NCBI RefSeq assembly: GCF_963576615.1
Contig: NC_088715.1
Location: 2,744,001 to 2,808,000 of the forward strand
Reading direction: 5' to 3'
Length of the DNA: 64,000 nucleotides
Source: Watersipora subatra
Taxonomy: Eukaryota; Bryozoa; Gymnolaemata; Cheilostomatida; Watersiporidae
The position numbers were made by a program, and so were the translations under genes. Below, in pieces: positions 2,609 through 28,500 of this stretch. Within the stretch, counting starts at the first letter, position 1. Each line of letters starts with the position of its first letter. Below the pieces are notes generated by a model. That model did not search any database. It worked only from the letters and a program-made list of their open reading frames with translations, and was not told where the DNA came from.

Positions 2609-3161
2609 TTTATACAAGCGAGCTCTAGGAGCTCTAAGAGCCCTAGGACTCCTTTCCTAGAAAGGAGTCTTTTCTAGAAAAGGACTTGATTCCTATGTTG
2701 TGGCTGTTCTCTTTTATTTTGAATGCTTTAGCCGTTTGTCCATATAAAGTAGGCGGGCGAAATTCCCGAATACTGCCTATCAAGCTATTTGACTAGATAT
2801 GCATGGTTAAACACAAATGAACTTATTACGAGAGCCGGCTGGCCAGCGATGCATTATAATTTGGCTGTGCAGAAGGCACACAGCTAAGTTTCACACTGCC
2901 GATGTCAGTCTGACTAGCATCACAGGTTAGTATAAAAACAGGATGTTGCCGGTATAAGGCCATATCCTAGTTGTAGTATTTCTCTAGATTTAAAAATATG
3001 ATTCTGAAATGTTGAATATATATCATAAACCTGACTATGTACGACAGGCTGGCTTCATCCCTCTGAGATTCACTTGTAGTTAATAATATTTACAGTACTC
3101 ATCTCATTGCGTATTACAGCCTGTGCTCCATTGCTTAGGTTTGAGCATAGGCACTCCAGAC
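2609..3161. other. Duplication breakpoint and presumed 5' flank or UTR of the TRIM-like gene
   Basis: Just right of the breakpoint lies a run of short palindromes (agctct, ctag motifs). It includes a hairpin at 2647-2669 with a 9-bp stem (GACTCCTTT) and a small loop. A possible splice acceptor (gtattacag) ends at about 3119, so a 5'UTR exon may begin there. No convincing TATA box or other coding exon was seen. Confidence 0.4.
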
Positions 3162-3304
3162 ATGGAAAAACAGGAGGATACCCGCTGTGGATTCTGTTTA
3201 GAAAAACTTATAACTAGTACAGACCCTAAAGAGCTATCATGTTCTCATGTTTACTGCTTGCCCTGTCTTGTAGCTGATTATAAAAAGACGTGTCCAACAT
3301 GCAA
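3162..3304 (+). CDS. TRIM-like gene exon 1: RING finger
   Basis: The ATG at 3162 opens 47 codons plus two bases before the donor GTGAGT at 3305. Zinc ligands are complete: C9, C12, C27, H29, C32, C35, C44 and C47, spaced CxxC, CxH, CxxC, CxxC as in a C3HC4 RING. That layout implies an E2-binding, ubiquitin-ligase-type finger. The open frame extends a little upstream without another ATG. Confidence 0.85.
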
Positions 3305-6300
3305 GTGAGTACAACTCTTAATATTTATTTTGTCTACCACATTTAAAAACGCTCACTTCAGCCTACCAAAACATTGTTTTTTGTTTGTAACAAAATGCTG
3401 CAGTTCAAACATGCTTTTTTGGCATTGTGTTTGATCAATAACTCAGTGGTTAAAGCCACATGGTAAATACTTTCTGTTCCCTGTTTACTTGAACCCACCT
3501 TGGTTGGGAATCACCGGTTACACATCTTGTGTAAAGGTTTTGTGCCGCCCTTACTTCCCTCCACTAGTACAAGACTCGGTGCATGAGTTTATACATATAT
3601 TTCTGCTTAGTTCATAAGAGTACAAGAATAATCAACACCAGGCAATGAACAGGCCCAAAACAGCTCTGCTCTCTGCACAAATGTTCAGGCTTATATAGCG
3701 GGTAGGCCCCGCCTCTGTCCTACTTGGCTGGGCCCGACTCGGCCCGGCTTGGCTTTGGCTTGGCTCGGCTCAGCTAGGCTTTGCTGCAGGTGGACGCCAT
3801 CCACCACACTTGTATATACACGGTACATGGTGTAAAGTACGTGTGCACCGGCTTCATTGTCCATGGTTTGTTTATCTTACTATTATAGTCAGCAGTGGAC
3901 AGGGGAGGCCGATTCCCTCCAATCATATTCCTTGACAGCTGAAACGAGCTGTACAAAAAAAGATATTATCATTTGTGACCCCTGCAAATCAAGTGAAAGT
4001 CCAGCCAGTGTCTACTGTGTCAACTGTAAAAAGACATTTTGTGAAGCGCATGAGCAGGTGAGTGTGACACTCATTGACATGTTATGTCTGACATGTAGAT
4101 AACTCATTTATAGCATTTTACTTTTTGACAGGATCATGACAAGCTATTTGACCTTGAGCATGACAAAGTAAGTGTGTCAACCTACGCATCTTCTCGTGCG
4201 AGTTACAGGAAACTTTTATGCAAGGAGCACCCTAACCAAGTTATTGCTGTAGCCTGTGGTCTGTGCTATCAGATGTTCTGTGGGAACTGTGACATGGGCT
4301 CCATATGCCAAGGAGAAGAAGGTGAGACCATTTCAAATCCCCCAGTTGAGTTGTTGATAACACAATAACAGATGAAGTTTGTCACCATTGACTAGTCTTT
4401 CCTGATTAACAATTGAACATTAGTAAAAGACGATCTACTAACAATTTTCATTTTGACTCAAAGTTGCCTCGCCTATGTCTGGCAAAGGACAAAGAACGGG
4501 TTTAGAGAATTGTAAAACACAAACCAACTGGGACCTTTATTTCTAGTTGTCACATTCTTTTTCTTAAACAGTAGTAAATTCTGCAATCAGTAAAAAAACT
4601 TGAGTCATTAGAAGTTAATTGATTATAATTATTTCCAATCATTACTTTTATTCAAAACAAGCGAAAGTTATTCTATCTATTGTTTTACCTTAGGGAACAC
4701 AATAAGTATTATTATTATTACATGTATTATTATTCATTTACAATAACGTCGGCTAAGTGATGGTCAGACACAGTAATATTGTAGATGCTTTACAAAGGCA
4801 CTTCATATTTTTCTCAATCATACAATAGTGTTTCATCAATGTTGTCAAACTAATATGCCAAGTTGTGTACACATGCAACAAAGATAGGGCAACTACAGAG
4901 TTGTTACCTTTACATTTTGACTCAAAACTATCTATACAATATACAGAGCTGAGGTCGTAAACCTCACATTCAATACAAGGCTTTCATAGACATCTGTTAA
5001 ATTGTTCAATCATTTATTACCACAATTACAATTTCTATGTTAATAGTTTTGCGCTTTTACAAACATGTAAAACATTTGATAACACTACCAGTGTTTGATA
5101 TCATTAGGTAAGATTAAGTAAAATAGTTATTTGCCTGCAGGCACTGTAATATTGACTTGCTTACAAATGTCATCATCATTTGTTCATTTCTACATAAAGC
5201 ACTAATTGGTTTGGTTGTTATAGTGTTAATATCAACAATTTACTGATGATGTAATACACATTTTGAATATAAAGAAAGCAAGAATGAAGTGAAGAAATTT
5301 AAAGAGTGAATATTTACCATTTGCCCTCTAAATCTAGAAGAATAGATATTTGTTGATCTGTTCATTAACATGCTGGCTTGACTCGTCAGGAGCAGACAAC
5401 TCATTTATGCCTTTTTTCTTTCAGTGCCATATTCTGTGAAGATGTGGGAGATGATGGTTCTCCACCACTTCCTTTTTCTCTTTCTTCAACAACGCTTGAT
5501 CCGATATCTCTACTCTCTCTTACTAGTAGCTGAGAAACCATCCATTGAGACATCTGCTCTATCACTACCAGAAAGAGATAGAGAGCACAGATATCGGAAC
5601 AAACATTGTTGAAAAAAACATGGAATAGATAATGGTGGAGAACCATGGTCGCCTATATCTTCACAGGTTATGGCACTTTCCTCTTTCTCCCTTTTTTCAC
5701 TCTCTTTCTTTCTCTCCCTCTCTCTCTCACTCTCTCTCTCTCTCTCACTCTCTCTCTCTCTCTCTCTTCCTCTCTCTCACCCACATACTCTCCCTCTCAC
5801 TCTCTCCCTCTCTCTCCCTCTCACTCACATTCACTCACTTTCTTTCTCTCTCCCTCGCTCTCCCTCGCTCTCCCTCGCTCTCCCTCGCTCTCTCCTTTTC
5901 TCCCTCTCTCTTTCCCTCTCTCTTTCCCTCTCACTTTCCCTCTCTCTTTCCCTCCCACTCTCTTTCTCCCTCTCTCTCCTTTCTCTCACCCTCTCTCTCC
6001 CTCTTTCTGTTTCTCTCCCTCCCTCTTTATTTTCCTCTCTCTCTCTCCTTTCTTTCACCCTCTCTCTCCCTCTCTCTGTTTTTCTCCCTCCCTCTTTATT
6101 TCCCTCTCTATTTTACTCTCTATTTCCCTCTCTCTCCTTTTCTCTCCCTTCACTCTCCCTTCACTCTCCCACTCTCTCTCCCACTCTCTCTCCTACTCTC
6201 TCTCCCTCTCTCTTCCTCTCTGGTAGTAAACGAGCAGAAGTATCTGTGCAAGCACTGTTAAACAGAACAAGGAATAAGAAGGGGTAAATAACCATCATCA

Positions 6301-9300
6301 TAGCGGTTTACGCTAGGTTTGTAGTTTGTGAGTGTCTAAAGGAAATTGAATCACTGATTTGGAGATGACTCATTTCTGTTGTATTAAATCACCACCAAAA
6401 CCGTAAAATCTACAATTGAAAAACATATTCTCAACAAGTTCTTCCACTGCAACACAAAAAATAACGATTTTATATAAGTTGCTCTTGGAATTAATAAACC
6501 AAAATGTCAAGCGTGGATGGAGGGTATTACCGGAAATAAAAATGTGTCGAGACATAAGGCACGTCACCGAAAAAAGTCAAATCCCACTACCAGACCACCA
6601 GCACAGTTGGTCGAACACGCAACACAACGAAACAACTTTTATGGCGACTTAGACCCAAACACAACGATGTCATAATGAACTAATGACAATAAAACCGCTG
6701 AGTGAGTAATAGACAGAAAAGGCTACTTGGGTTCTCCTACAATCATGTCATCCACCATTTTATATGGTATATTATTCACCTGATGATTTGTATTAAAGCA
6801 CTAATAAATCGAGTTAGCTAGCAGCAAAGGTAAACAAAAATAACATCTCTTGGTTTCAAGATAGTGGAATTGTTGAAAACAAAAAACAGATTAAAGAAAT
6901 AAGGTGAGAGTCAGCCACTTCTAATACAACTCACTTCATTGCTATGAAGGCAGGCTTAGTAAGCTATGGAACCGAAAACCGTTTCAGTTTTTAGCTTTGA
7001 CAGATGCAATTTTATTTTTTGTAAGCAATCTCTATATATTTTTAAAACATCTACTTTAATTTGGTAAATAAAAGCTTGAAAAGCTTACTGCATTTTTTTC
7101 TTATGTGGATCATTTCAATATTCCCTGTCAGAAAAGCTATGTAGGTCATCCAATTTTCAAGTGATTTTAAGGTTGCTTTGTAAATAAGTCTACAATTATA
7201 GTCAAACAGGTTTGATTTTGTATAATAGTTTGGTAGAATTGTAGCTGAACCAATTTCATTTTGTAACTTTTCCTCTGCTATAGGATTTGAAACTGCAACA
7301 TCCAAGCCGACCACAAAATTGTTTGATGTTATGAAAGATTTCAATATATCACCCAGCACTATCGCTGCATCAAAGTCATATTTGTTTGATTTCAAGCCTG
7401 CCTCACCAATCATATCTGCAAAACCCAAATTAAACAAAGATACACTTGGTAGTACGGCAGATTCCAATAGAACATCCAGCAGCAAAACTGCCCCAGCTCT
7501 CTCTGGTGCCGAGCCTGTGTCCACATTTGGAGCGACGACATCCAAATCAAACACAGGACTATTTGACAGTACACCAGATTCCAGTACATCATTCGGCAGA
7601 AAAACTCCACCAGCTCCCTTTGGTGCAAAGCCCATGTCAGAATTTGGAGCAGCAACATCAAAACCAAACACAGGATTATTTGGCAGTACGACAAATTCCA
7701 ATACATTGTTCGGCAGTAAAACTACACCAGCGCTTTTTGGTAGAAAACCCATGTCAGGGTTTGGAGCAGCAACAGCCAAGCCAAAGACAGGCCTATTTGG
7801 AAGTATGACAGATTCTAATACATCGCCTGGCAGCAAAGCTGCACCAGCTCTCTTTGGTGCAAAGCCTATGACAGGAATTGAAACGGCACCATCCAAACCA
7901 AACACAGGATTATTTGGCAGTACAACAGATTCCAATACATTATTCAGCAGTAAAACTGCACCAGCTCTCTTTGGTGCAAAGTTCATGTCAGGGTTTGGAG
8001 CAGCAACAACCAAGCCAACGACGGGACTATTTGGAAGTATGACAGATTCTAATACATCATCTGGCAGCAAAGCTGCACAAGCTCTCTTTGGTGCAAAGCC
8101 CATGTCAAGATTTGGAACAGCAACATCCAAACCAAACACAGGAATATTTGGCAATACTACAGATTCCAATGCATTATTCGGCAGTAAAACGGCACCATCT
8201 CCATTTGGCGCAGAGCCCATGTCAGGGTTTAGAGCAGCAACATTGAAACCAAACGCAGGACTTTTTAGCAGTACAACAGATTCCAACTCATCATTCGTCA
8301 CTACAACTGCAGCAGATCTCTTCGGTGCCAAATCTGGAACAGCGACACCCATATCAAATGTAAGGTTATTGTGGTCTAACAACTACCAGCAAGTCATCTT
8401 TCACCACATCTTCTAATTCAATGGCAAATCTATTTCATGGTTAGGCAGATTCTTTTAGTTTTGATGTTACTATATGAGTTCTTATCTGATGTTACTCACT
8501 ATGTCTATATTACTGTATGAGTTCTTATCTGATGTTACTCACTGTGTTTATATTACTATATGAGTTCTTATCTGATGTTACTCACTGTGTCTATATTACT
8601 ATATGAGTTCTTATCTGATGTTACTCACTATGTCTACATTACTATATGAGTTTTTACCTGATGTTACTCACTATGTCTATATTACTATATGAGTTCTTAT
8701 CTGATGTTACTTACTATGTCTATATTACTATATGAGTTCTTATCTGATGTTACTCACTATGTCTATATTACTATATGAGTTTTTACCTGATGTTACTCAC
8801 TGTGTCTATATCACTATATGAGTTCTTATCTGATGTTACTTACTATGTCTATATTACTATATGAGTTCTTATCTGATGTTACTCACTGTGTTTATATTAC
8901 TATATATGTTCTTATCTGATGTTACTCACTATGTCTATATTATTGTATGAGTTCTTATCTGATGTTACTCACTGTCTCTATATTACTACATGAGTTCATA
9001 ACTGATGTTACTCACTGTGTCTATATTACTATATGAGTTCTTATCTGATGTTACTATGTTTATTATAGTACTATATAAGTTCTTATCTGATGTTACTCAC
9101 TCTGTCTATATTAAGATATATAAGTTCTTATCTGATGTTATTCACTGTGTCTATATTACTGTACAAGTTCTTTTCTGGTGTTACTCACTGTGTCTATATT
9201 ACTATATGAGTTCTTATCTGATGTTACTCACTGTGTCTATCTATATAATTGCAGACGTCTCAGAGAGGAACAACATCAGTGAAGTTTGTCGCAACTAATG

Positions 9301-12300
9301 GAACAGATAATATGGTTAAAAATGGTGTATCCATGCAAATCAAAACCAGACATTATCATATAACCGAAATGCGTCAGTATAAAACATACAGCGTAGAGGT
9401 AACTCAAGTGAAATGTATTTCACAATGTATTTCATTTTAATAAACATGGCAGAACATTTGGTTTGTCAGTTTACTATTTAAATTCTTAACAGTTTGTAAG
9501 ACACTCAAATGAGATTAACAATGCCAGCTAATGAATTCCATAATCACTTAATATATAATGGCTGTTGACTTATGTAAATTCATGACACATATCTTATTTA
9601 CTTACAAGAGAAGATGGTGTCAGGAGAAATAAGTTATGTCCAGTTATAACATGACTAGTACAAGCCTTAAGTTATTTTGACCATTTATTCTTTCATGAGT
9701 AGAGATCAGTATTTCATTCAGACCCTTTCACTATCCTATCTGAACTTAAAGTCACAAGTGTTTTTTGGAATTTCTATTTCAACCCAGTTATTTGTTTTTA
9801 GTGCAACAAGTTTATTAAAGAAAGTGTTATAGCACTATCTCTGCACTTATCTGTTCACAGGAGCTCAGACTGGATGACTATCAACTGAATGGAAAGCGTC
9901 CACTTTGCTTTAGATCAGCTGGTGCAAGTTTTGGTTGCGCTTCTTTCCAAAAACTCACACTCGAAAACAAGCCGCCTGCGGACAAAGGTTCTGGTGCATT
10001 TACATTCGATAGCATTCTTAGTGGTTTTATTTTATATAACTCTCAGTAACTGTTTCTATGAATTTCTCAAATTGGTTTATCTTGTTTTTTGTTTAATTTT
10101 TTTTCTTTACAATCAAGCTCAGAGCTTCAGGGCAGGGCATTTTCAAGTTTTTGAGCAGTTTCTAATTGCTTTGTTAAAGTTTTTATTTTGCTTGTTACAG
10201 TAAAGATAAAACCCGTGGTTTTGAATAGACTCGCTGAGCAACTAAGAATGTAGCTAACCATCCAGTTGATGAATCAAATATGACTCATCAGAATAAAGTT
10301 TTTAATGAATCTTATTTTTGAAATCTGAAAATTTAATTCCGACTTGGGTAAAAATTAAGAGAATCACTTCTATCGATTAAATAAAATAGTAGGATGGTTT
10401 CTCAGAGCTGAAGCGAAGGTGGACAACTCCAGTTGTAATTAATTTCCTCTCCAAGGATGCGACATAAGTACAAACATAGCTAAGAACATATCAATTTAGA
10501 AAATTTTGTAATGATGGTTTCAAAACATGATTTATGTTTGTTAGTCACGCGCCTTCACAAATTCATGCCTGTCGCTGATGTGCTGAGCAAAGCGGATGAG
10601 CTGTTAAGGAGACGACTCCAAAACCTTTCTGAGCGGTCTACGGAGATCTGCAGAGCTGAAAAGCAGCTTTGGCAAACTGTTGATGATGCTGATATCTATA
10701 ACAAAAGAATGGAGTCATATGTAGACAGAATCATCAAGGAGAAGGTAACTCCCTGAGTGTTTCAGGCAACCAGCACTGAATAGTAACAGTGACTAGACTT
10801 GAAAGGTTTGTTTATCAGTGTAGTATTTGGAGTATCTTCTCAGTGTTTTGATGAACTAGGAGTGGCTGATGCTATTAACATTGATGACAATATTGGTATA
10901 TTGTACGGATTAAAAACTATTTCAAGGGAGTGAATATATTATATAGCCTTGTCATCAGCCACTCAACAAGCAAGGTTTGATACAACAATACAAGGTTTGA
11001 TATAACTATACAGGGTTTGATATAACTACACAGGGTTTGATATAACCATACAGGGCTTAATATAACTATACAGGGTTTGATATAACTATACAGGGTTTGA
11101 TATAACTATACAGGGTTTGATATAATTATACAGGGTTTGATATAGCTATACATGGTTTGATATAACAATACAGGGTTTGATATAACTATACAGGGTTTGA
11201 TATAACTATACAGTGTTTGATATAACTATACAGGGTTTGATATAACTATACAGGTTTTGATATAACCATACAGGGTTTGATATAACTGTACAGGATTTGA
11301 TATAACCATACAGGGTTTGATATAACTATACAGGGTTTCATATAATCATACAGGGTTTGATATAACCATACAGTGTTTGATGTAATCATACAGGGTTTAA
11401 TATAACCACATAGGGTTTGATATAACTATACAGGGTTTGATATAGCTATACAGGGTTTGATATAACTATACAGGGTTTGATATAACTATACAGGGTTAGA
11501 TATAACTTTACAGGGTTAGATATAACTATACAGGGTTTGATATAACTATACAGGGTTTGATATAACTATACAGAGTTTGATATAACTATACAGAGTTTGA
11601 AATAACTATACAGAGTTTGATATAACTATAAAGGGTTTGATATAACTATACAGGGTTTGATATAACTATACAGAGTTTGATATAACTATACAGTGTTTGA
11701 TATAACTATACAGGGTTTGATATAACTATACAGGGTTTGATATAACTATACAGGGTTTGATATAACTATACAGGGTTTGATATAACTATACAGGGTTTGA
11801 TATAACTATACAGAGTTTGATATAACTATACAGAGTTTGATATAACCATACAAGGTTTGATATAACAATACAAGGTTTGATATAACTATACAGGGTTTGA
11901 TATAACTATACAGGGTTTGATATAACTATACAGGGTTTGATATAACTATACAGGGTTTGATATAATTATACAGGGTTTGATATAACTATAAAGGGTTTGA
12001 TATTACTATACAGGGTTTGATATAACTATACAGAGTTTGATATAACCATACAGTGTTTGATATAACTATACAGGGTTTGATATAACTATACAGGGTTTGA
12101 TACAAGCGTGCAGAGTTTGATATAACTATACAGGGTTTGATATAACTATACAGGGTTTGATATAACTATACAGGGTTTGGTATAACCATACAGGCTTTTA
12201 TATAACCATACAAGGTTTAATATAACCATACAGTGTTTGATGTAATCATACAGGGTTTAATATAACCACATAGGGTTTTATATAACTATACAGGGTTTGA

Positions 12301-15300
12301 TATAACTAAACAGGGTTTGATATAACTATACAGGGTTTGATATAACCATACAGGGTTTGATATAACTTTACAGGGTTTGATATAACTATATATGATTTGG
12401 TATAACCATACAGGGTTTGATATAACTATACAGGGTTTGATATAACCATACAGGGTTTGATATAACAATACAGGGTTTGATATAACCATACAGGGTTTGA
12501 TATAACTATACAGGGTTTGATATAACTATACAGAGTTTGATATAACCATTATACAGGGTTTAATATAACCATACAGGGTTTTATATAACCATACAGGGTT
12601 TGATATAACTATACAGGGTTTGATATAAATATACATGGTTTGATATAACTATACAGGGTTTGATATAACTATACAGTGTTTGATATAACCATACAGGGTT
12701 TGATATAACTATACAGGGTTTGATATAACTATACAGGGTTTGATATAACTATACATGGTTTGATATAACCATACAGGGTTTGATATAACTATACAGGGTT
12801 TGATATAACTATACAGTGTTTGATATAACTATACAGGGTTTGATATAACTATATAGGGTTTGATATAACCATACAGGGTTTGATATAACTATACAGGGTT
12901 TGATATAACTATACATGATTTGGTATAACCATACAGGGTTTGATATAACTATATAGGGTTTGATATAACCATACATGGTTTGATATAACCATACAGGGTT
13001 TGATATAACTATACAGGGTTTGATATAATCATACAGGGTTTGATATAAATATACATGGTTTGATATAACTATACAGGGTTTGATATAACTATACAGTGTT
13101 TGATATAACCATACAGGGTTTGATATAACTATACAGGGTTTGATATAACTATACAGGGTTTGATATAACTATACAGGGTTTGATATAACTATACAGGTTT
13201 TGATATAGCCATACAAGGTTTGATATAACCATACAGGGTTTGATATAACCATACAGGGTTTGATATAACCATACAGGGTTTAATATAGCTATAAAGCGTT
13301 TAACTTGCTGACCCTCATTTTTCCCCTGCTCATAATTCGCACATGAATGAAGATCAACGGTGTCTCTTATAGAATAAACTTTATTCAATAAAGGATCAAC
13401 CTGCTACATTTCAATCTCAGCTCTGTTTGTCATGCCTGTGTTAACAAAAGTAATTGTTGAGGTCAAATAAAATATGAATTTCAGTGCAAGGTCTTGTTCA
13501 TGAATGGTAAAAAGATAAAGGGAGAGCTCAGGACAAAGTTCAAAAGTGCAGTTACAAGAGCTGCTCTACGTACGGATGAACTGAACTCAGAAAGTGAACG
13601 TCTACAGAAACTGGAAAAAGAGATTACCTCAAATATAGATGGTGATGGAGCCAGCCTTCTTGACTTTATGCATGAAAACAAGTCAAACTTGAACAACACC
13701 AGCCTCCAGCCCTTAAAGATGTTTAGTATTGAGAAAGAAACTTTACAGCTTGAAGGTTAGTATTTGAGTCTTGTTAAAACCTCATATGCACTAAGCTATC
13801 GCTTCCAAAGGCCCAAACACACAAGGCGATATTTAGCGCGATGTTATCTTGGTGCAAGTCTGCGATTGATTCCGCTAGGCTAATTGATACTGAGTCAAAA
13901 ACTTGCTCAATTATAACTTCATCGCACTCGAGGTGCATTTTGATTGGTTGTTTATCTCCAGAATTCAATGCCCTGATTGCCAATTTTTGTGTCAATGTTT
14001 GTACACCAACAACAGTTTGCTATATTGTTACGACTGAAACATGATCAAAATGAACAGGTAATTGTTCATGTATTTAATAAGAGCGCACCCAGACTTGTAC
14101 AACACAACACAACACTCATTCTTACAAAGATATCTATTTGAAAACTAATAATTGGAAGTTGATCTTTGCGCAGGTTGACCATCGTGAGAATAGAAGATAT
14201 TTATTTAATATATTAAAAGCACTATTAATAAATGTATATATAAAATCGATAAATATTATCATTAAAATATGATAATTGTTTTTTCTAATGTCTTCTAGTA
14301 GTGCGCAATTTGAGAAAGAAAGATAGGCCTTTTAAAAAACAGAAGTTGTTAACGCCGTTATCTAGAAGGGCCATAGTTGCTTAAATTTATTAACAGCATC
14401 GAAAAACTGGTGATACAGAATTTTAGTGAGAGCTTCCAAGCGTACCCGGGTTATCTATCGCTCAGTGGTGAATCGCCCACTGGTGAATCCCCTAAGTGTG
14501 TTTGGGCACATGCTAGCTATATCTCCGCACTCGCCATAACACTCGCAACAAACCCATCTAGTGCGTTTCAGCCTTTAGTGACCACCTAGCTGTGCTTCCC
14601 AGCGTTGCCCGCATAATAAGAAAGTATTTGGTCAGGAAATTTATTTGTATTTAATATATAACAATATTTGCCATTCTTACTTTCAAACTACATGTACATA
14701 TCATGAAAAAAGTGTTTTGTGTAATTGAAATAAATTAAGAGAGAAAATAAAGCAATGGTGAAGGTTTTCAAACTTAGTCAAACAACTTTTAAACTCATAT
14801 TTTCTTGTATCATGAAGAAAATGTTTCGTGCAGGTCAAATGAATAAAAAAAAATAAAACAACTATAAAAGGTTTAAATGTAAATGTGAAATGATTAGCAA
14901 GTAATAGCTAAATTGAGTCTGTTTAGCTACGATTACAATATGAGATGATTCGGTAATGATACAATTAATACAAACTGAGAAAACAAAATAAAAATCCTGA
15001 ATATGTAGAATTAATAATAACAATTCTTGCATAGAAGTGTATGTGTATAAAAAAGTTTACTGTGCTACCAGAAGCTATCTATCAAAACTTTGAATACGAC
15101 GATACGGAGAAGATATAATTGTGCGCGTGAGAAGAATTGGCCTTGACCCCAGATATAGTAATTGAACCTTACAAAAGATATTTGTTAACAGGGGCATTGT
15201 AACGCCTGGCTGCATTGGTAAAATAATCAGCGTGCGCTATAGTTGGAATGACAGATAGATCCACATACTTAGAGAAATATATATATAAACTAACTGTGCT

Positions 15301-19000: not shown

Positions 19001-21834
19001 AATGATTGTAGTCATCTGTTCGGATGTCTGTCTGTTCAGTTATAGCTATTAAAACTTGGAATGAAAAGGTCACTGCATGCTGGATTTGAACTCACGAGAT
19101 TGCAATCACATGTGTCAAACCACGCGCTGTATCACTGAGCTATACAGTCCTTGGCTATTAGTCAATTTTATCATATACCGTATACAGTGCAAAATGTGCA
19201 CGCTCAATGTCAACTTTTGATTATTAACTAATATTGCTGCTTGCATTTGTTATTTTTTGTATTTGTTTAAAAAATAGTTTTTTGTTTCTATTACCTATCT
19301 TTTTAATTTGTAATGATTAAATGTGCCATTTCAATTTCCAATGTGTGTTATACTTCTATTTCCGGTTTTTCGTAAGGTTCAATTGCTAAATCTGTAAAGG
19401 CTAATACTTCCACGCGGACAATTGTATTATCTTGAATAGGAATAACCTTTAGATTCTCTCTCCAATCCGTCAGACAAAGACAGTACGATATCTCATTTTT
19501 ACATTTGTACCATTGTATAGAGGTACCAGTATCGCCGTATTCAAAGTTTTGGTTGATAGCTTTTGGTGAACACTAACCTTTTTATAGACACACTTCTATG
19601 CACAAATTGTTAGTATTAATTCAACATATTCGAGAATCTTATTTTGTTTTCTCAGTTCGTATTAATTGTATCATTACCAAATGATCTTTATTGTAATTAT
19701 AACAAAACAGACTTAATTTAGCTATTACTTGCTGATTATTTCACATTTACATTTAAACAATTTTAAAGTTGTTTCATTTTTTAAAATTTATTTGACCTGC
19801 ACATAACATTTTCCTTATGATATGAAGTTTGAAAGTTACAGTTGTTTGACAAAGTTTGAAAACCTTTAGTTTTTTAATTTTCTTTCTTAAATTATTTAAA
19901 TTGCACAAAACACTTTTCTCATGATATGAAGTTTGAAAGTTAGAATGGTAACTGTTGTATATGTTAAATACAAATCAATTTTCTTTGCAAAGACTTTTAT
20001 GACCCGAGCAACGCCAGTCATTCCTAGTAATAACTATATACTAGTGATAACAAATTTTGAGTTGAGTAAATAAACCTTAAATATAAAGCTTATTGCTATT
20101 AATTGAATATAAATATTTAAATATGAAATTAAAATAAAAAAAATAGAAACTAAAAATCGATTATGTTACCCCTAAACCACATTTTAACACATCATGGGCT
20201 CAAGTCACATTTTAATAACGACCTTTTAGCTCATTAACCAGTTATATCCTGGGTTCCTCGTTGTAACATTTGATTCTTATCTTGTTAATGAATAGGTCCA
20301 TTCATTAAATGGCAATGGAAGCCATATATTCCCTCACACCTGCAGCTGACTGCTAAGAAAAATACAGATGAACGAATTCTCTCTTTGACCTACTTGAGAA
20401 ACGGTTTTGTTCTTGTGGCCACGGAGAAAAACATTCTAGAAGTTAGAGATCCTCAACTGAACGTTCGACATCGACAGATGACAGCAGGTACTCTTAAAGC
20501 AGTATCTACGCTCAACAATAACGCTGTAGCCTTGACACATGATGGTGACAAGGCAGCCCTTTATCTATACAGTTATAATCTCTTAGAGGGTAGAAAGGTC
20601 ATCGAGTGGAGTAGCTTCGAGCTCGAGTCGTATGATCTGGCAGCATTTGAGGATGAACTTGTAGTATTAGAAGCGCTTGCTAAGAAGATAACACGTGTCC
20701 GTACAGATGATTGGACAATTGAAGAAGAGATATTAGATAGTAAACCTGATTCAATATGCCCCATTGATAAAAACTGCTTCTGGGCTGCCGACTCTACAAC
20801 TATTCGGGGAATCAATAGCAATTTAAACCTGAGTTTTGGCTGTAGCGATGTGCCATGGGAAACTAATTTATTGTCAAGGAAACCTACGCTACCTGTTAGG
20901 CTCTGTAAAACTTCAGATGCAGATGGATTCTTCTATGCAAGCAAAGGAAACCAGATTCTATCATTTTCACCTGAAGGTAAATTTATACATTGTGCATAGA
21001 GCTTCGCAATATGGTGACTTGATTGCTTGGTGGCAGTTTTAAAAGGTAAACGATTTGTAAATTCCCACCATTTAAAAATATATTATCAATTTTAAGTTGA
21101 AATATACAAATAAATGTTAACAAAATTTTCAAGTTTTTGCGTAATAATATCACGATATCTCGAAAATCATCTATAATCAGACGATTCATGATATACTACA
21201 GTATAATATTGTAAACTTGCATTATCGAATCGAATGTTAATTTGTGGAAAACGTTACATTTTGGAACTTTAGAGAATCGAAAATTTTTTTTAGGAACTTT
21301 GGAAATTTGTGCATTAATTATGCTCATTAACTGCCTTGATGTAGACCAGGTAATTTTTTGACGTTTCACTTAATTTTTTTTCAGCATTTATTAAAAATTG
21401 TTTAAATAAAATTATCTGTCTGCGTTTAGTGTTTAGTTTAGCGGTTACTGAAATTTAAATTGAAAATTGTAAATAATAAATAGTATCAAAAAAGTAACAT
21501 ACAAATGACAAATAAAAGATTAAAAGTTGCTTTTAAGACAGAACTTTTATCCCGAATAGAAAAAAACTATTTCTACACATTTTCACCCAAAACTCTGAAT
21601 CTTTTTCTTTATTTAAAGTTCTTGAACTATTGCAACACTTGACCTAATTAATGTTTGAAAATGTACTAAATTAGACAGTTACATTATTTTGTGAAAAATA
21701 TTTTAGGAATGGCACGAAATTTCTTATCCTACACAGACCAACCTGTAGACCAGGAAATCACTGATCTAGCTGTGTGCGGTACCAACTTGGTTGTAGCCTG
21801 TGGACCAGAGATGATGTTGTTCAACATACTCTGA
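3162..21834 (+). CDS. TRIM-like RING, B-box, coiled-coil protein with propeller-like C-terminus (7 exons)
   Basis: Coding exons are 3162-3304, 3889-4057, 4132-4321, 10545-10744, 13485-13755, 20296-20976 and 21707-21834. Their lengths sum to 1782 bases, an exact 593 codons plus stop, with all junction phases compatible. Domains: a RING of C3HC4 type at residues 9-47, B-box 1 at about 77-114, B-box 2 at about 134-172, a helical charged region at about 175-320, and a beta-rich region at 330-593. The family (TRIM/RBCC) comprises E3 ubiquitin ligases, with the C-terminal propeller usually choosing the substrate. The C-terminus is like the NHL type in position, but I could not assign canonical NHL repeats. 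The start is the first ATG, eight codons before the RING. Intron 3 contains the FG/GLEBS exons, intron 4 a 2.3-kb satellite and intron 5 several transposons. Confidence 0.85.
3721..3785. repeat. GC-rich ggcttggct/cggct simple repeat in intron 1
   Basis: Imprecise 5-6 base units of the type ctcgg or cttgg run through the end of intron 1, in marked contrast to the AT-rich surroundings. No function is suggested. Confidence 0.5.
3889..4057 (+). CDS. TRIM-like gene exon 2: B-box 1
   Basis: The acceptor tattatag and the donor gtgagtg bracket one base plus 56 codons. The pattern CDPC, then YCVNC, then FCEAH is that of a type-1 B-box zinc finger. The closing histidines (DHD, EHD) are supplied by exon 3, so the domain is split by a short 74-base intron. 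Confidence 0.85.
4132..4321 (+). CDS. TRIM-like gene exon 3: end of B-box 1 and B-box 2
   Basis: Acceptor tttttgacag, donor GTGAGA at 4322. There are 63 codons plus one base. The B-box 2 ligand pattern starts with CKEH, then CGLC, FCGNC and IC; the final histidine (LHKFM) comes from exon 4 at 10545. The phase-1 end fits two different downstream acceptors: exon 4 at 10545 (TC completes GTC) and the FG exon at 7284 (GA completes GGA). Confidence 0.85.
4322..7283. other. Intron 3, left part: no exon recognised
   Basis: Apart from the pyrimidine repeat at 5689-6222, this is unremarkable AT-rich sequence. I looked for an FG-coding exon or a start exon for the FG/GLEBS module and found none. That leaves either a start inside the FG exon or splicing from TRIM exon 3. 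Confidence 0.5.
5689..6222. repeat. (CT)n / (CTCCC)n pyrimidine-rich low-complexity tract
   Basis: Over 500 bases are almost purely C and T on the plus strand. It yields three long overlapping open frames of Ser, Leu and Pro, and an Arg/Glu frame on the other strand. These are repeat artefacts, not genes. Purine/pyrimidine asymmetry of this length can form triplex (H-DNA) structures. Confidence 0.9.
7284..8359 (+). CDS. FG-repeat exon (GLFG type)
   Basis: Acceptor tgctatag before 7284, donor GTAAGG at 8360. Eight or so copies of a 117-bp unit encode GFGAATSKPNTGLFGS, then a Ser/Thr-rich spacer and ALFGAKPMS. The composition (Ser, Thr, Gly, Ala, few acidic residues) is that of an intrinsically disordered FG nucleoporin domain. 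The first unit begins FETATSKPTTKLF, continuing the repeat across the acceptor. Confidence 0.8.
7284..10049 (+). CDS. Nup98-like FG-repeat and GLEBS module nested in TRIM intron 3 (3 exons)
   Basis: Exons are 7284-8359, 9255-9398 and 9861-10049, joined in phase 0. The first encodes about 350 residues with roughly 20 FG dipeptides (GLFG, ALFG, GFG) in a 39-residue repeat. The second and third together encode a GLEBS motif: TSVKF, GTDNMVKNGVS, ITEMRQYKTYSVE, then ELRLDDYQLNGKRP across the intron. In Nup98 this segment binds Rae1/Gle2, and the FG repeats form the permeability barrier and bind transport receptors. The stop TAA is at 10047. The Nup98 autoproteolytic domain and later GLFG repeats are absent. 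The first exon begins with two bases of a codon, so an upstream exon is needed; none with FG was found. The first in-frame ATG is at 7331. Either a truncated Nup98 paralogue or cassette exons of the TRIM gene. Confidence 0.78.
8466..9245. repeat. 43-bp tandem repeat, about 18 copies, in the FG/GLEBS intron
   Basis: The unit contains gagttcttatctgatgttac followed by tcact(a/g)tgtctatattactat. Copies are 85-98% alike by eye, with a few short or variant units near the right end. It fills nearly the whole intron between the FG exon and the GLEBS exon. Confidence 0.92.
9255..9398 (+). CDS. GLEBS exon, first part
   Basis: The acceptor aattgcag is followed by 48 codons in phase 0 and the donor GTAACT. 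Core residues TSVKF, GTDNMVKNGV, I(T)EM and SVE align position by position with the Nup98 GLEBS hairpin that contacts the Rae1 propeller. The acceptor sits directly after the 43-bp array. Confidence 0.82.
9861..10049 (+). CDS. GLEBS exon, last part and C-terminus
   Basis: The acceptor ctgttcacag precedes GAG. ELRLDDYQLNGKRP completes the GLEBS motif. The tail is 62 codons in total, ending in a hydrophobic stretch (ILSGFILYNSQ) and TAA at 10047. The last residues may be read-through into an intron: weak phase-1 donors exist inside the exon (G followed by GTTCTG or GTTTTA). Confidence 0.7.
   Translation, partial: ELRLDDYQLNGKRPLCFRSAGASFGCASFQKLTLENKPPADKGSGAFTFDSILSGFILYNSQ
10292..10297 (+). 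terminator. Probable poly(A) signal for the FG/GLEBS transcript
   Basis: AATAAA is followed by a T-rich stretch, 243 bases after the FG/GLEBS stop codon and 248 bases before TRIM exon 4. It would allow a short transcript to end inside the TRIM intron. Confidence 0.5.
10545..10744 (+). CDS. TRIM-like gene exon 4: B-box 2 end and coiled coil
   Basis: The acceptor tttgttag precedes TC, which completes the split Val codon from exon 3. LHKFMPVADV closes B-box 2 as in many TRIM proteins, then a charged helix follows (LSKADELLRRRLQNLSERST). Donor GTAACT at 10745, phase 0. Confidence 0.82.
10968..13305. repeat. 20-bp satellite array (tttgatataactatacaggg), about 115 copies
   Basis: 2.3 kb of head-to-tail 20-bp units sit in TRIM intron 4. 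Variation is mainly act/acc and ggg/gtg/gag. One 3-4 base insertion near 12545 shifts the register once. Local blocks of identical variants suggest recent expansion by slippage or unequal exchange. Open frames on the minus strand here are repeat artefacts. Confidence 0.97.
13485..13755 (+). CDS. TRIM-like gene exon 5: coiled coil
   Basis: The acceptor aatttcag is followed by 90 codons plus one base and the donor GTTAGT. The protein is charged and helical (KKIKGELRTKFKSAVTRAAL, LNSESERLQKLEKEI), consistent with the second half of a TRIM dimerisation coiled coil. The phase-1 end fits the acceptor at 20296. Confidence 0.82.
13808..14510. mobile_element. Short inverted-repeat element or related repeat
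   Basis: gcccaaacacac near 13810 is matched by gtgtgtttgggc near 14497, giving possible terminal inverted repeats. The left part (aaggcgatatttagcgcgat) recurs inverted at 35020-35285. The two copies define a dispersed family. No transposase is seen. Confidence 0.5.
14585..15680. mobile_element. Dispersed repeat family with cgttgcccg ends (plus-strand copy)
   Basis: Two cagcgttgcccg / cggcgttgcccg motifs (about 14597 and 15307) mark the start of a block and of a second related block. 14590-15210 aligns in inverted orientation with 19370-20010. The second block (from 15300, gttgcctgccact) aligns with 60230-60360. No coding capacity was recognised. Possibly a non-autonomous retroelement; the class is not determined. 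Confidence 0.65.
16018..16079. repeat. (AT)n microsatellite
   Basis: An uninterrupted run of about 31 AT dinucleotides in TRIM intron 5. Confidence 0.97.
17177..18118. repeat. Cluster of nested palindromes with caactcgagttg core
   Basis: Three related units start or end with tatggcg(c)c...cagtgcc-type inverted ends (about 17177, 17690-17886 and up to 18116). They are packed with the 12-bp palindrome CAACTCGAGTTG. The best is 18031-18092, a near-perfect 62-base inverted repeat. These look like a self-complementary foldback element family. Confidence 0.75.
18361..18990. repeat. AT-rich minisatellite (atatcatgtatatatcgtatc) grading into a gagggtgcactgtatatcag array
   Basis: Variable-length atatat runs separated by catgtatatatcgtatc are followed by units with tgagggtgcactgtatatca. 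Long frames of Tyr, Ile and Ser here come from the repeat. Confidence 0.9.
19020..20030. mobile_element. Inverted copy of the cgttgcccg repeat family with a tRNA-like segment
   Basis: 19370-20010 is the reverse complement of 14590-15210 with many substitutions. The left part, read on the minus strand (19150 to 19085), has box-A-like (tagctcagtgatacagcg) and box-B-like (gagttcaaatcc) motifs, which suggests a tRNA-derived SINE portion. With its partner at 14590 it forms a long inverted repeat inside TRIM intron 5. Confidence 0.6.
20296..20976 (+). CDS. TRIM-like gene exon 6: propeller-like region
   Basis: The acceptor aatgaatag precedes GT, which completes a Gly codon, then 226 codons follow to the donor GTAAAT. 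The protein is rich in beta-strand blocks of propeller type (GFVLVATEKNILEV, DELVVLEALAKKITRV, FWAADSTTI, GFFYASKGNQILSF). 22698-23167 is a partial duplicate with roughly 80% protein identity. If the donor is not used, the frame runs seven more codons to TAG at 20997; the duplicate keeps the same short extension. Confidence 0.82.
21707..21834 (+). CDS. TRIM-like gene exon 7: terminal exon (copy B)
   Basis: The acceptor attttag is followed by two bases, 41 codons and TGA at 21832. It encodes one blade-like segment ending ACGPEMMLFNIL. It is the middle of three copies of this exon (593, 21707, 24225). Phase matches exon 6. Confidence 0.82.
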
Positions 21835-22695: not shown

Positions 22696-24352
22696 ATGAC
22701 GCTCAACAATCAAGCTGTGGATTTGATACAAGATAGAGACAAGGTAGCACTTTATCTATACAACTTTAATCTCTTAGAGGGTCGAAAGGTCATCGAGTGG
22801 AGTAGCCTTGAGTCTGAGTCGTATGATCTGGCAGCATTTGATGATGAACTTGTAGTATTAGAAGTGCTTGCTAAGAAGATAACGCGTGTCCGTACTGATG
22901 ATTGGACAATTGCAGAAGAGATTTTAGATAGTAAACCTAACTCAATATGCCTCATTGATAAAAGCCGCATCTGGGCTGCCGACTCTGAAACTATTTGGAA
23001 AATCGACGGCAATTTAAACGTGCGTTTTGGGTGTAGTGATGTGCCATGGAGAACTATTTTATCGCCAAAAAAACCTACGCTACCTGTTAGGCTCTGTAAA
23101 ACTTCAGATGCAGATGGATTCTTCTATGCAAGCAAAGAGAACCGGATTCTATCATTTTGCTCTGATGGTAAGTTTATAGGTTGTGCATAGAGCTTCGCGA
23201 TATGGCGATTTGATTGTTTGGAGACAATTTCGAAGGTAGACAATTTGAAAACCGCTGCCATTTGAAAATATATATTGACAATCGTAGAAACGATATACGC
23301 TTGTAATTGTGCAATGACTATTTATTTTCCACCTGAAAATGTCCCGAGTGAGCTGCTGGAACTAAAACGCACCGGTCCTCTCGTCTTATATCAAGCTCAT
23401 TCCACGACCTTTGACCTTCTACTTACACGGGCATTTAGGCATTTTCACTTCCATGAATGAACACGGACATTCATAAAATAAATGTTTCTAATTGTCACAA
23501 ACATAAAACAGTTTCTTTCTAAGTTAAAATATATAAATAAATCTTATCAAAAATTTACAAGTTTTTACATAATAATATCGCAGCATCTTGCAAATCGTCT
23601 ATAAACAGACGATTAGTGAGATATAGCGATTCGACATTGCAAAGTCGCAATATTGCCAGACTTTGAAAATCTAGAAAATCAGAAATTTTGTAAGATTTTT
23701 ATGAAGTTGTGCATTAGTTATACTCATTAAGTATATCGATGACCAGGTGATTTTTTTGAGGATTCGCTTTCCTATGTTTTAGCATTTGTTAAAAATTGTT
23801 ACAATAAAATTATCTATCATACAAGAACTCTCGAACTAAACAATTGTTTCATTAAAATTATCTATCAAGTTTCAACAAAGTTTAACATTTACTGAGTTTA
23901 CCGCGATTAACTAAAAAAATCGAATAGTTTTATAGAAAAGATAACTCTTAATTTCTATCAACACTTGTAAATAAAAAAATAATTGCAAAAATTAGGATGC
24001 AAATGACAAATTAAAAATAAAAGTTTGCTTTTGAAACAGAGCTTTTTTTCCAAATAGCAAAAATTATTTCTATACATTTTTCCACCCAAAAAGCTAAAGG
24101 TTCTGTTTTTGAACCATTGTACATATCAAAGGTGTATTTATTTAGGAATGCTACCAAACTTTGCCCTAATTAATGTTTGAAAATGTAATAAATTAGATAC
24201 AATATTTTGTCAAAAATATTTCAGGATGGGGACATAATTTCCTATCTAACCCAGACCTATCTGTAGACCAGGAAATCACTGATCTAGCTGTGTGCGGAAC
24301 TAACTTGGTTGTAGCCTGTGGACCAGAGATGATGTTGTTCAAAATACTCTGA
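22696..24352 (+). pseudogene. Propeller exon pair, copy C (5'-truncated duplicate)
   Basis: Exon 22698-23167 and terminal exon 24225-24352 repeat the last two exons of the TRIM-like gene. Frames are open, the donor (GTAAGT) is stronger than in copy B, and the phase (1) is kept. Shared blocks include NLLEGRKVIEWSS, LAKKITRVRTDDWTI and RLCKTSDADGFFYAS. Similarity begins abruptly inside the exon at cgctcaacaa, with no acceptor before it, so RING, B-box and coiled-coil exons are missing. An ATG happens to stand at the junction (22696), so a short propeller-only protein of about 200 residues is possible. Mostly conservative differences hint at past selection. Pseudogene is the cautious call. Confidence 0.72.
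24225..24352 (+). CDS. Terminal exon, copy C
   Basis: Acceptor tttcag, two bases, 41 codons and TGA at 24350. It ends ACGPEMMLFKIL. It differs from copy B mainly in the first ten residues. Confidence 0.65.
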
Positions 24353-25488: not shown

Positions 25489-25559
25489 TTAGAGGATACC
25501 GAGTCGACGCTCCATAAGTGCGTGTGGATCACCGGCTCGCTCTGGAAACTCCATTGGAC
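25489..25559 (-). CDS. POMP: POMP last exon
   Basis: The minus-strand acceptor catgttcag is followed by GT and 22 codons to TAA. It encodes PMEFPERAGDPHALMERRLGIL split around the previous exon's Ser. The plus-strand open frame over the same bases is a shadow: the differences from copy A are silent or mild on the minus strand but all amino-acid-changing on the plus strand. Confidence 0.85.
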
Positions 25560-28500
25560 CTGAACATGCAAAATAAACTTTCATATAGCTAGTTTATTTA
25601 TGTGACAATAACTGGTATAAAGACACAGCAGTTGCCAAAGAATAACAAAGATGACAACACTTACTGTTGAAGACATCCTCTATGTCTATGGATTCATCCC
25701 TGCCTGTTAGTATGTCCTCCATCAAGTTGGAATTTCTTGTGGCCATGCACGGCAGTCGATTTATCTGTTAATAGACGCGATTAGTTTTTAGAGGTTAGAA
25801 AACTCCGGAACAGTCTACTAGCAAGGGTTGAACTTCTGAAAGCATGTGATTGTTCGTATGTAAACTCTTCCAGTTGGCTGAGTACAAGAGGGTGCTATAG
25901 AGGCAGAAGTTTTGTCCCTGAACATTATTGAACATCTATTGACAAGTTGTACAAGAGACAGCCTGCTCTCTTTGTTGTAAAAGACAGTTTATGCCTTTAG
26001 TATAATTATGTATGAGTGATACTCTGCTTGCATTTCCAAATATGGACAGGTGACCTTTCATAGGCCAGCTGCACGATTGACATATCATACTTTTCGGACT
26101 ATTAACCGCACCCTTATATAAGGCGCATCTGCTTTATTTAAAAAAAAGATAATAAAACAATACATAGGCCGCACCTTTGTATAGGCCGCAGAACTCACGA
26201 CGGAGATTTTTAACATGGCAGCAACTTTGCTAGTTAAAACGGAACAGTGCCGTTAGGCACTGTTCCGTATTAACTGACACTTTTTAACCCAGCGCCTAAC
26301 GGAACAGTACAGTTGGGTATTGTTTCGTATTTTCTTTCACCGGTAAAGATACACTAACCAGAGATTCCGAATGATGCGCCCTAGAAGTGAAAGAAAAAAC
26401 CACAGAATAGCCGCACCCTTATATAAGCCGCATGGCTCATAACATCAGAAAAAAGTAGTGGCTAAATTATAGTCTGAAAAGTATGGTAGCTGTTTTTGTT
26501 GAAAACAATGCATTGTTACATGAACTTTTTAAAACTGTCATTTGCTTCCGCCCTCGGCCTAAAAGGCACCACGAATAAAACCGCAGTATAAAATAATATA
26601 TCAAATAAAACTCGTGGTTGATTGAGCATGACCAAACCCTTTCACATTTAGAAATGTTTCTTTTAGTTGCACTGGTTCATCATGAAAATCATACCTGCTG
26701 GTGTAAACAATTCCATCCTGATTACGGACAACAGGGTTTATAGACATAGTAGAAACAGGAGTTTTAATCGGCATATTTTGAAGCATCAGTAGTTTCAAAC
26801 ATTATTTTGTGTGCCGTACTGCAATGTCTGCTACCTAGGATGAGAAACTATAGATGCAGCACACACCTGTTTGGCAGCAAACCTCTCCATGCCAAGCTTC
26901 ATAGGCATATGGAGACCTTGTATAGCGCGAGCAGTCGCCATAGCTTGTCTCTCCTGCTGCTCCCTCCACTGTCAACAGACAAAGTTAAACCTAGTACCTT
27001 GATGCCCTCAAACATTCACCCTCGTGTCTCTGTCTCAGTCTTCTGTTATTTATGATATGAACATACGATAACACAAATAAGACACTAATCTATATAAATC
27101 TCAGTGTTCGACCGCCTAATTATAGCCATAAACTTTTAGGAACCGAAAATCCACCTCGCACTGGATTTGAACTCAGAACCTCGAGGTCTGCAGACCAGCT
27201 AGCCAATCCACTACATTACGCTGTCCATTTCGCTGTCACATTACATACTATGAAACAATAGGATACATACATGCACTTAATCATCATTTGCGAAAATTCT
27301 ATCAGCCAGCTTGACGTTACACGTAATGTCATTACTCATTAGGTCAAGCTGGTTTCACGGCTGCTATTAAAGATAAATCAGGTAAGTTACTCAAATTCAA
27401 TGGGTAACTAGAAAATTCCCCTGTCATACAGCCCACGACCAAAGAGATAAATGAAAAAAGAAAGGGTACTACTGGTTGAAAAATGCAATATTAGCAATCA
27501 AATGGCACTGCAGTGCAATATGATAACTGCAATGGTAGCTGTAATGTACTGGGTGTTATTATATACAACAAACAGCAATAATGAAAGGAAAGATTATATG
27601 TTTATATCTCTCCCTGCAATAGGAGAAATGCAATATTAAGTAAGTAAAATGGCAAGCTGCTGTGTAATATACACAGGCAAGGGGGGGGGGGGGCTGTATA
27701 TCATTGGTCATAGCAACCAATATCAAGAAGTTGTGATATTTATCTAGATTTCTGTATTTATATCTAAAAAGCTATGCTGAATTTAAAAATCTAAACAGAT
27801 TTTAGCTGGTTGTCATAAAAATTGATGTATATCTATAAGAAAATGTAGACCTATAACTTAATTTTGTAGATATTACAAACGGCTTGGCAGTACCGCGATA
27901 TTGGGCACAGCCGCAGTATCATCAACAAAATCATTAGAAAAATAATAACAGTACATATTGCAAACCATTGGTCACTATAATTATACTTTGATCTTGTAAA
28001 CTCGAATGATTATTCTTACAACTATATATTATAATAATCTCATAAAATCGAATAATTATTCTCACAATTAAATATTGTAATAATCTTATAAGAATCGTTA
28101 GAAAAATATCATCATCATATCCTTTACTTTCACTGCTTTGGACATAAGTTGGAATACCAAAGTACTCATTATAAGTGTCCAAAATGTCAGAGTCCGGTAG
28201 AATCGGCAAAAAAGAAATGATTACTTTTCAGTACTTCTATGTTAATTACAGAAACCTTCGGCAATTGGACAATGCCATAGACTGGTGAAATCACTAAAAT
28301 GTGCACGTTTTTCTCGTGAAATGCGCACGACTTAATGGTTCTACTCTCTGTCGCACGGCCTTATCGGCGTTTCGTTGACCGGTCTTAATTTTGATTAAAA
28401 AACGCTTGTCAAGTTGTAATGGCGATTTTTGGGCCAAATTCATCTGTCTAGCTATGTATAATCCGATCAGATGGGTAAGTTTTAGAATATTGTCTACACT

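Follow-up and report, generated by a model that had tools for sequence, protein, structure and literature searches.

A TRIM gene with two possible ends

The DNA analysed here, referred to as the window, is a stretch of 64,000 nt from the bryozoan Watersipora subatra (C8:2744001–2808000 of a searched genome of 783,720,542 bases). Its plus strand carries a gene of the TRIM type, and the third intron of this gene contains a module of phenylalanine-glycine (FG) repeats followed by a Nup98-type GLEBS motif. Exons 1–3 can be read on into either of two ends (Table 1). Joined to exons 4–7 they give an open frame of 593 amino acids (aa), referred to as the TRIM form, with the RING, B-box and coiled-coil (RBCC) arrangement. 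Joined to the FG exon and the two GLEBS exons they give a chimera of 1911 nt that is open for 636 aa plus stop, with canonical GT-AG borders at all six exons, exactly as described in the initial annotation.

Splice sites were scored with a generic position weight matrix and ranked among all GT or AG dinucleotides in the window. The donor at 4321 and the acceptor at 7284, which would be joined in the chimera, lie at the 99.9th and 99.8th percentiles. Lower ranks were found for the chimera acceptors at 3889 (79th) and 9255 (89th) and for those of the TRIM form at 10545 (80th), 13485 (33rd), 20296 (84th) and 21707 (43rd). The phase-1 end of exon 3 does fit the FG exon, as had been pointed out, and the same phases recur in five open copies of the locus (see below). 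The first three TRIM donors have phases 2, 0 and 1, however, so that any acceptor finds a fitting donor among them and exon 3 itself would match one acceptor in three; the frame match alone is therefore weak evidence. The AATAAA reported behind the chimera stop is also present, in two places, but this motif is common, with a mean spacing of 853 nt in the window.

No coding first exon for the FG module was found in intron 3, where no phase-1 ATG exon has a donor score of 2 or more. The best candidate below this threshold has six codons and a donor score of 1.1, and the weaker ones score below zero. Homology to FG coding sequence was likewise not detected upstream of 7284 (p 0.39 for DNA and p 0.19 for protein). 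The earlier statement that the FG module lacks any other upstream exon thus holds for coding exons, but not for donors as such, since the donor at 6903, with an in-frame stop before it, scores the same as the donor at 4321 (6.73 each). Only five plus-strand donors in the 64 kb reach 6.5.

Table 1. Features of the TRIM locus and its nested FG-GLEBS module (window positions; a slash marks the exon border)
Position	Strand	Feature	Evidence or remark
2877–2925	+	Candidate non-coding 5' exon of the host gene	Donor ATCACAG/GTTAGT, score 4.5; start uncertain
3162–3304	+	Exon 1: start codon and C3HC4 RING	All eight Zn ligand positions present
3889–4057	+	Exon 2: B-box1	TRIM28-like alignment
4132–4321	+	Exon 3: most of B-box2	Phase-1 end at strong donor AAG/GTGAGA
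6903	+	Rival donor AAG/GTGAGA in intron 3, possible non-coding first exon	Score 6.73; in-frame stop just upstream
7284–8359	+	FG exon, 39-aa GLFG-like repeats, phase-1 acceptor	PF13634, E 5.8e-8
9255–9398	+	GLEBS exon 1 (Rae1/Gle2-binding motif by homology)	PF21240, E 3.5e-15; PDB Nup98 matches
9861–10049	+	GLEBS exon 2, FG tail, stop	PDB Nup98 matches; w 0.36 in nine copies
10292–10297, second at 10380	+	AATAAA, candidate poly(A) signal of the FG-GLEBS end	Weak
10545–10744	+	Exon 4, TRIM form: last His of B-box2 and coiled coil	Phase-1 acceptor
13485–13755	+	Exon 5, TRIM form	Corresponds to residues 14–103 of database protein P0050
20296–20976	+	Exon 6, TRIM form: strand-rich C-terminal region	Strands predicted in P0050, low confidence
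21707–21834	+	Exon 7, TRIM form, with stop	Open TRIM-form join

Domain content and relation to Nup98

Pfam analysis of the chimera identified Nup98_GLEBS (PF21240) with an E-value of 3.5e-15 (56.2 bits, cut-off 27) and Nucleoporin_FG (PF13634) with an E-value of 5.8e-8 (33.9 bits, cut-off 32.2). The autoproteolytic domain PF04096 was not among the Pfam matches up to E 1. The window GLEBS also matches Nup98 chains in the PDB (seven distinct sequences, best E 3.8e-14) and is identical to the human motif at 30 of 54 positions, so its proposed Nup98 type is supported.

The proposal of an FG-phase module, on the other hand, is weakened. The FG part of the window has 14.5% charged residues (K, R, D and E) and one FG per 17.9 aa, as compared with a median of 2.5% and one FG per 11 aa given for Nup98 FG domains in PMC4283134. 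In the FG exons of nine copies of the locus, charged residues make up 7.6–14.5%. None of the 49 database proteins that match the chimera reaches 14.5%, although the stretch counted includes non-FG sequence for some of them. When only the part before the GLEBS is counted, six database proteins have 1.1–3.2%. The aphid paralogue P0016 has 9.2%. The suggested location of the chimera at nuclear pores or on export factors is weakened, and would now depend on the GLEBS motif only.

The RING of exon 1 has a complete ligand set (C9, C12, C27, H29, C32, C35, C44 and C47) according to the C3HC4 pattern. The Pfam RING models stay below their curated cut-offs (best E 1.3e-5), as does the B-box model (E 0.0084). 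The RBCC region of TRIM28/TIF1-beta (PDB 6h3a) aligns to residues 8–245 of the TRIM form (E 3.6e-8), across the join of exons 3 and 4, and shows B-boxes followed by a coiled coil; the alignment stops before the C-terminal region. We know of no FG-GLEBS alternative end for TRIM28. Exon 3 ends inside B-box2, and both the coiled coil and the His that matches the last B-box2 His of TRIM28, presumably a zinc ligand, lie in exon 4. RING and B-box1 are retained in the chimera. For the C-terminal part of the TRIM form, a Pfam scan gave no family over the cut-off. The AlphaFold model of P0050 was of too low confidence (mean pLDDT 38) to base a fold search on.

A GLEBS locus at 30.04 Mb of C8 is presumed to be the canonical Nup98 of W. 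subatra because FG exons surround its GLEBS. Three of the four FG pieces counted there have few charges. Its GLEBS exon ends in KSME/ at phase 0, which corresponds in position to SVE/ in the window (E/E), and the two GLEBS share 64% identity over 44 aa, or 35 of 58 residues over a longer stretch. The retained intron position together with this identity marks the module as a piece of Nup98 that was copied at the DNA level. The module resembles Nup98 (Nup98-Nup96) in having GLFG-like repeats followed by GLEBS, with the intron placed as in the presumed canonical gene, but it differs in lacking the autoproteolytic domain and in having more charged residues and fewer FG motifs.

In the protein database, 7990 candidates were scored against the chimera and 49 matched (350–1113 aa). 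Their precomputed domains were GLEBS, FG, PF04096 and, once, PF13358. Two of them, P0016 from the aphid Metopolophium dirhodum and P0034 from the fish Pholidichthys leucotaenia, combine GLEBS with degenerate FG and lack PF04096, like the module, but unlike the chimera they have no RING pattern and no Pfam RING or B-box. The GLEBS tail as a region query gave no match in the protein search. No gene of this kind is described in the titles and abstract openings of the open-licence papers listed by literature searches. The Ensembl annotation of W. subatra was built mainly from transcripts, and poly(A) RNA-seq data for the species (specimen tzWatSuba4) already exist, according to PMC12902671.

Copies of the locus on C8

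The genome search with exons 2–3 gave 12 matches corresponding to 11 copies (two matches are pieces of one), all on C8. Along C8 they are labelled A, B, C, D, E, F, G, H, W (the window), I and J. Only the best candidates were scored in the genome searches, so all copy counts are lower bounds. The FG exon gave 66 DNA matches grouped into 11 loci, of which 10 follow an exons 2–3 copy; the locus at 2644207 has none upstream. The GLEBS search gave 12 matches, nine of them over the cut-off, namely the 30.04 Mb locus and copies C, D, E, F, G, H, W and J. With copy I, whose match is below the cut-off, a GLEBS lies behind 9 of the 11 exons 2–3 copies, over the cut-off in eight. Exon 4 was found in seven copies (C, D, F, G, W, I and J) and was not seen in the stretches examined for E and H, while exon 6 had 13 matches in the genome. 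Judging from its spread over the copies, the nesting probably preceded most of the tandem duplications.

In two stretches, C8:2642707–2645988 and 2652404–2656076, there are an FG piece and TRIM exons 6–7 with no exons 2–3 copy detected; this could be either a headless unit or one whose head went undetected. GLEBS-like matches below the threshold, with one stop each, were seen at C10:28012689 and C4:15019157.

The chimera join was built for copies W, E, D, H and J, and not for A, B, C, F, G and I. All five gave an open six-exon frame with phases 2, 0, 1, 0, 0 (W 636, E 656, D 749, H 528 and J 943 aa). That paralogous copies repeat the nesting, the phases and the open frame is what places the observation above chance. 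RING ligands, FG and GLEBS core are all intact in W, D, E and J, whereas H lacks two RING ligands even though its chimera is open. The tails of H and J differ from the family as well. No FG match was found near copy A among the listed matches, the first repeat of copy C contains an early TGA, and exon 3 of copy G is split. The donor motif at 2925 occurs in 9 of 11 copies (not in D and J), and the frame there is not conserved. The open ATG frame at 2817–2925 was rejected as a coding first exon, since indels between copies, seen by eye, break it.

Selective constraint was measured as pairwise w between copies; related copies are not independent, and the p values below serve as guides. With decayed rows left out, w was 0.26 for exon 1 (11 of 11 copies), 0.53 for exon 2 (10, without H), 0.37 for exon 3 (9, without G and H), 0.52 for exon 4 (7), 0.44 for GLEBS exon 1 (8 of 9, without I) and 0.34 for GLEBS exon 2 (7 of 9, without E and I). 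With the rows restored, w was 0.56 for exon 2 (11), 0.35 for exon 3 (10, without G), and 0.46 and 0.36 for the GLEBS exons in all nine copies. Among the open-chimera copies alone, the GLEBS exons gave 0.40 (5 rows) and 0.42 (4 rows). In a consensus test, in which distinct changes are counted against a neutral simulation and which is stricter than pairwise w, GLEBS exon 2 was clearly constrained (p 0.0013; 6 rows, without E, H and I) and GLEBS exon 1 marginally so (p 0.056; 8 rows, without I). The same test gave p 0.012 for the RING (11), p 0.19 for exon 3 (8, without G, H and J) and p 0.16 for exon 4 (7). The FG exon is weakly constrained (w 0.57 for W–E, 0.56 for E–H and 0.89 for W–H), and its start region has no stops where 3.0 are expected (p 0.042). 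In the window, the coding frame gives the FG repeats a pN/pS of 0.58, lower than any of the other five frames, but their third-position excess reaches only p 0.057.

The GT donor at the end of exon 3 is found in 11 of 11 copies, and all six copies with an FG start (W, E, H, D, I and J) keep the FG acceptor AG/GATTT. By eye, good alignment across all six is limited to roughly the last 150 of the 650 bases ahead of this acceptor, and farther upstream the intron of W, E and H is not common to D, I and J. Met 7333 occurs in W only and is absent from the five other copies with the FG start, so there is no start codon common to the FG exon. As the GLEBS exons are constrained and no FG start is shared, the simplest reading is that translation enters the module from a coding exon farther upstream. 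The one shared candidate found for this role is exon 3, and splicing from exon 3 to the FG exon would be the best reading of these alignments.

Other features of the window were noted as well. Just 3' of the FG exon donor, at 8361–8440, lies an FG-like remnant in a shifted frame with stops (p 0.006); the exon was evidently once longer and has lost ground at that end. A 443-codon open frame runs antisense to the FG exon (7054–8382, minus strand), with antisense counterparts at copies E and I. It was not accepted as a gene but taken as a by-product of codon make-up, since the GLEBS fixes the strand. Long tandem arrays have units of ≈43 bp in the FG-GLEBS intron (8464–9240) and, by eye, ≈20 bp in TRIM intron 4 (10960–13290). 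Open partial copies of TRIM exons 6 and 7 lie behind the main set at 22699–23169 and 24221–24349, possibly as a spare C-terminal cassette; the ratio of nonsynonymous to synonymous substitution (dN/dS) of the exon 6 copy is 0.61. On the minus strand we find what we take to be two gene copies of POMP (proteasome maturation protein) at 1541–2600, apparently partial, and 25490–27000. A segmental duplication, with pieces 81–92% identical, bears both POMP-like copies and the TRIM 3' end. At 36925–37709 there are frames that by eye resemble a degraded reverse transcriptase.

Proposed fusion and competing explanations

We favour, with moderate confidence, the reading that the module represents Nup98-derived alternative 3'-terminal exons in TRIM intron 3 and that the chimera is spliced from exon 3. 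DNA-level copying would have placed a Nup98 piece with FG and GLEBS in the third intron of a bryozoan TRIM gene, in the orientation of that gene, and most of the gene's tandem duplications would have followed. Transcripts would start at one TRIM promoter, with the candidate 5' exon ending at 2925, and continue through exons 1–3. Splicing to exon 4 would then give the RBCC protein with its C-terminal region, and splicing to the FG exon would give a RING/B-box1/FG/GLEBS protein, for which the module supplies both stop and poly(A) site. The chimera GLEBS could bind Rae1 and so bring a RING E3 ubiquitin ligase to Rae1 or its bound partners; without a coiled coil, dimerisation, if any, would have to be by other means. 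Possible outcomes are ubiquitination of Rae1, a decoy, or a trap for viral proteins that use Rae1-Nup98. The exons, reading frames, homology, copies and constraint are established here, and we infer the splicing, the Rae1 binding and the E3 activity of the chimera from sequence. The initial annotation had suggested one locus with two ends, and this part gained support from the open frames in five paralogous copies, while its overall reading is supported in part.

Several observations weigh against a functional chimera. It lacks a complete B-box2 and a coiled coil, so the RING/B-box ligase originally proposed would keep RING and B-box1 but not the rest. The start region of the FG exon is unconstrained (w 1.07, or 1.34 in the consensus test), and the constraint on exons 1–3 could be explained by the RBCC form alone. 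Six of the eleven copies (A, B, C, F, G and I) have no tested open chimera. The FG start and acceptor are lost in C, F and G, and the GLEBS of copy I is below the cut-off and has one stop. In copy E, GLEBS exon 2 leaves the family sequence after 18 residues. RING ligands are complete in 9 of 11 copies but lost in B and H; B has lost three of eight and has no GLEBS among the listed matches. The window GLEBS keeps 13 of 18 columns that are invariant in the proteins of ten other species, and its K36R, E39K and A53L are not in the presumed canonical W. subatra Nup98. Since that GLEBS is itself divergent (34 of 57 residues identical to human), divergence as a sign of decay is softened, although it stands for these three departures. 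None of the 49 database matches has the RING pattern and no RING-GLEBS protein was found in the protein searches. The search with the TRIM form gave a single match, P0050 of W. subatra (368 aa), which is without RING. Copy G is the source of P0050 (99.6% match in exon 6), and at least 12 further exon 6 copies exist; the database therefore misses most of the family, and absence there is weak evidence.

Many of these points would fit a decaying segmental relic that was carried along by the TRIM tandem duplication and is either not made or made as noise. Besides the unconstrained FG start, the acceptors lost in C, F and G, the stop in the GLEBS of I and the missing RING-GLEBS protein in the database searches, this account would explain why modules are partial or unlisted in B and A, and why a shifted-frame FG remnant follows 8359. 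We nevertheless regard it as unlikely, as FG exons are open for 242–664 codons from acceptor to donor in W, E, H, D and J, copy I runs for 1000 codons from the FG acceptor without a stop, the GLEBS exons retain w of 0.46 and 0.36, and splice sites and phases are kept in five copies. A neutral-drift simulation of our own design left an intact frame in 0–0.2% of runs with indels, but in 7–24% of runs with substitutions only.

A nested separate Nup98-like gene, with its own promoter, a non-coding first exon ending at the 6903 donor and Met 7333 as start of a stand-alone FG-GLEBS protein, also seems improbable. The 6903 donor equals the exon 3 donor in strength and is kept in E and H, and truncated GLEBS proteins without the autoproteolytic domain do exist (P0016 and P0034). 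Yet an in-frame stop precedes this donor in each of W, E and H, no Met was seen in the start regions read for E and H, and the donor is absent in D, I and J and, by eye, in C, F and G. Exons 1–3 might instead be used in the FG-GLEBS product only, with exons 4–7 forming a separate gene. This arrangement is compatible with the chimera, so that its odds are not exclusive of it, but we consider it very improbable. P0050, the one family protein found in the database, does begin inside exon 4, but this short model is explained by its origin from copy G with the interrupted exon 3, and TRIM28 aligns across the exon 3/4 join. After the genome comparison, alternative ends of a single TRIM gene are thus, on balance, the probable interpretation.

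The closest analogue to these alternative ends is TRIM5-CypA (TRIMCyp) of macaques and owl monkeys, in which the duplicate of a different host gene was added to a TRIM locus and became, through alternative splicing, a new C-terminus, as described in PMC2279257. The cyclophilin copy of TRIMCyp was retrotransposed (PMC4378998), whereas the piece in W. subatra is an intron-bearing, DNA-level piece of Nup98. The join would also fall inside B-box2, without a coiled coil, and the unit has been multiplied about tenfold. By analogy with TRIM5-CypA (PMC2279257), the copies might form a birth-and-death family of TRIM-Nup98 fusions with GLEBS/FG as bait, which would bring the RING to Rae1 or to viral proteins gripping Rae1-Nup98 and be a bryozoan counterpart of TRIMCyp; we regard this extension as doubtful. 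Rae1-Nup98 is described as a known target of viral antagonists (PMC8790125; PMC12458179).

If the chimera is made, a TRIM gene far from primates would have recruited a second unrelated host domain through alternative terminal exons, in a fusion early enough for the unit to multiply and stay open in several copies. It would tie a ubiquitin ligase directly to the Rae1-Nup98 node of mRNA export, and its FG part would be a Nup98-derived protein that has departed from the low-charge composition typical of Nup98. The family would then offer a ready test of bait capture as a general route of TRIM evolution.

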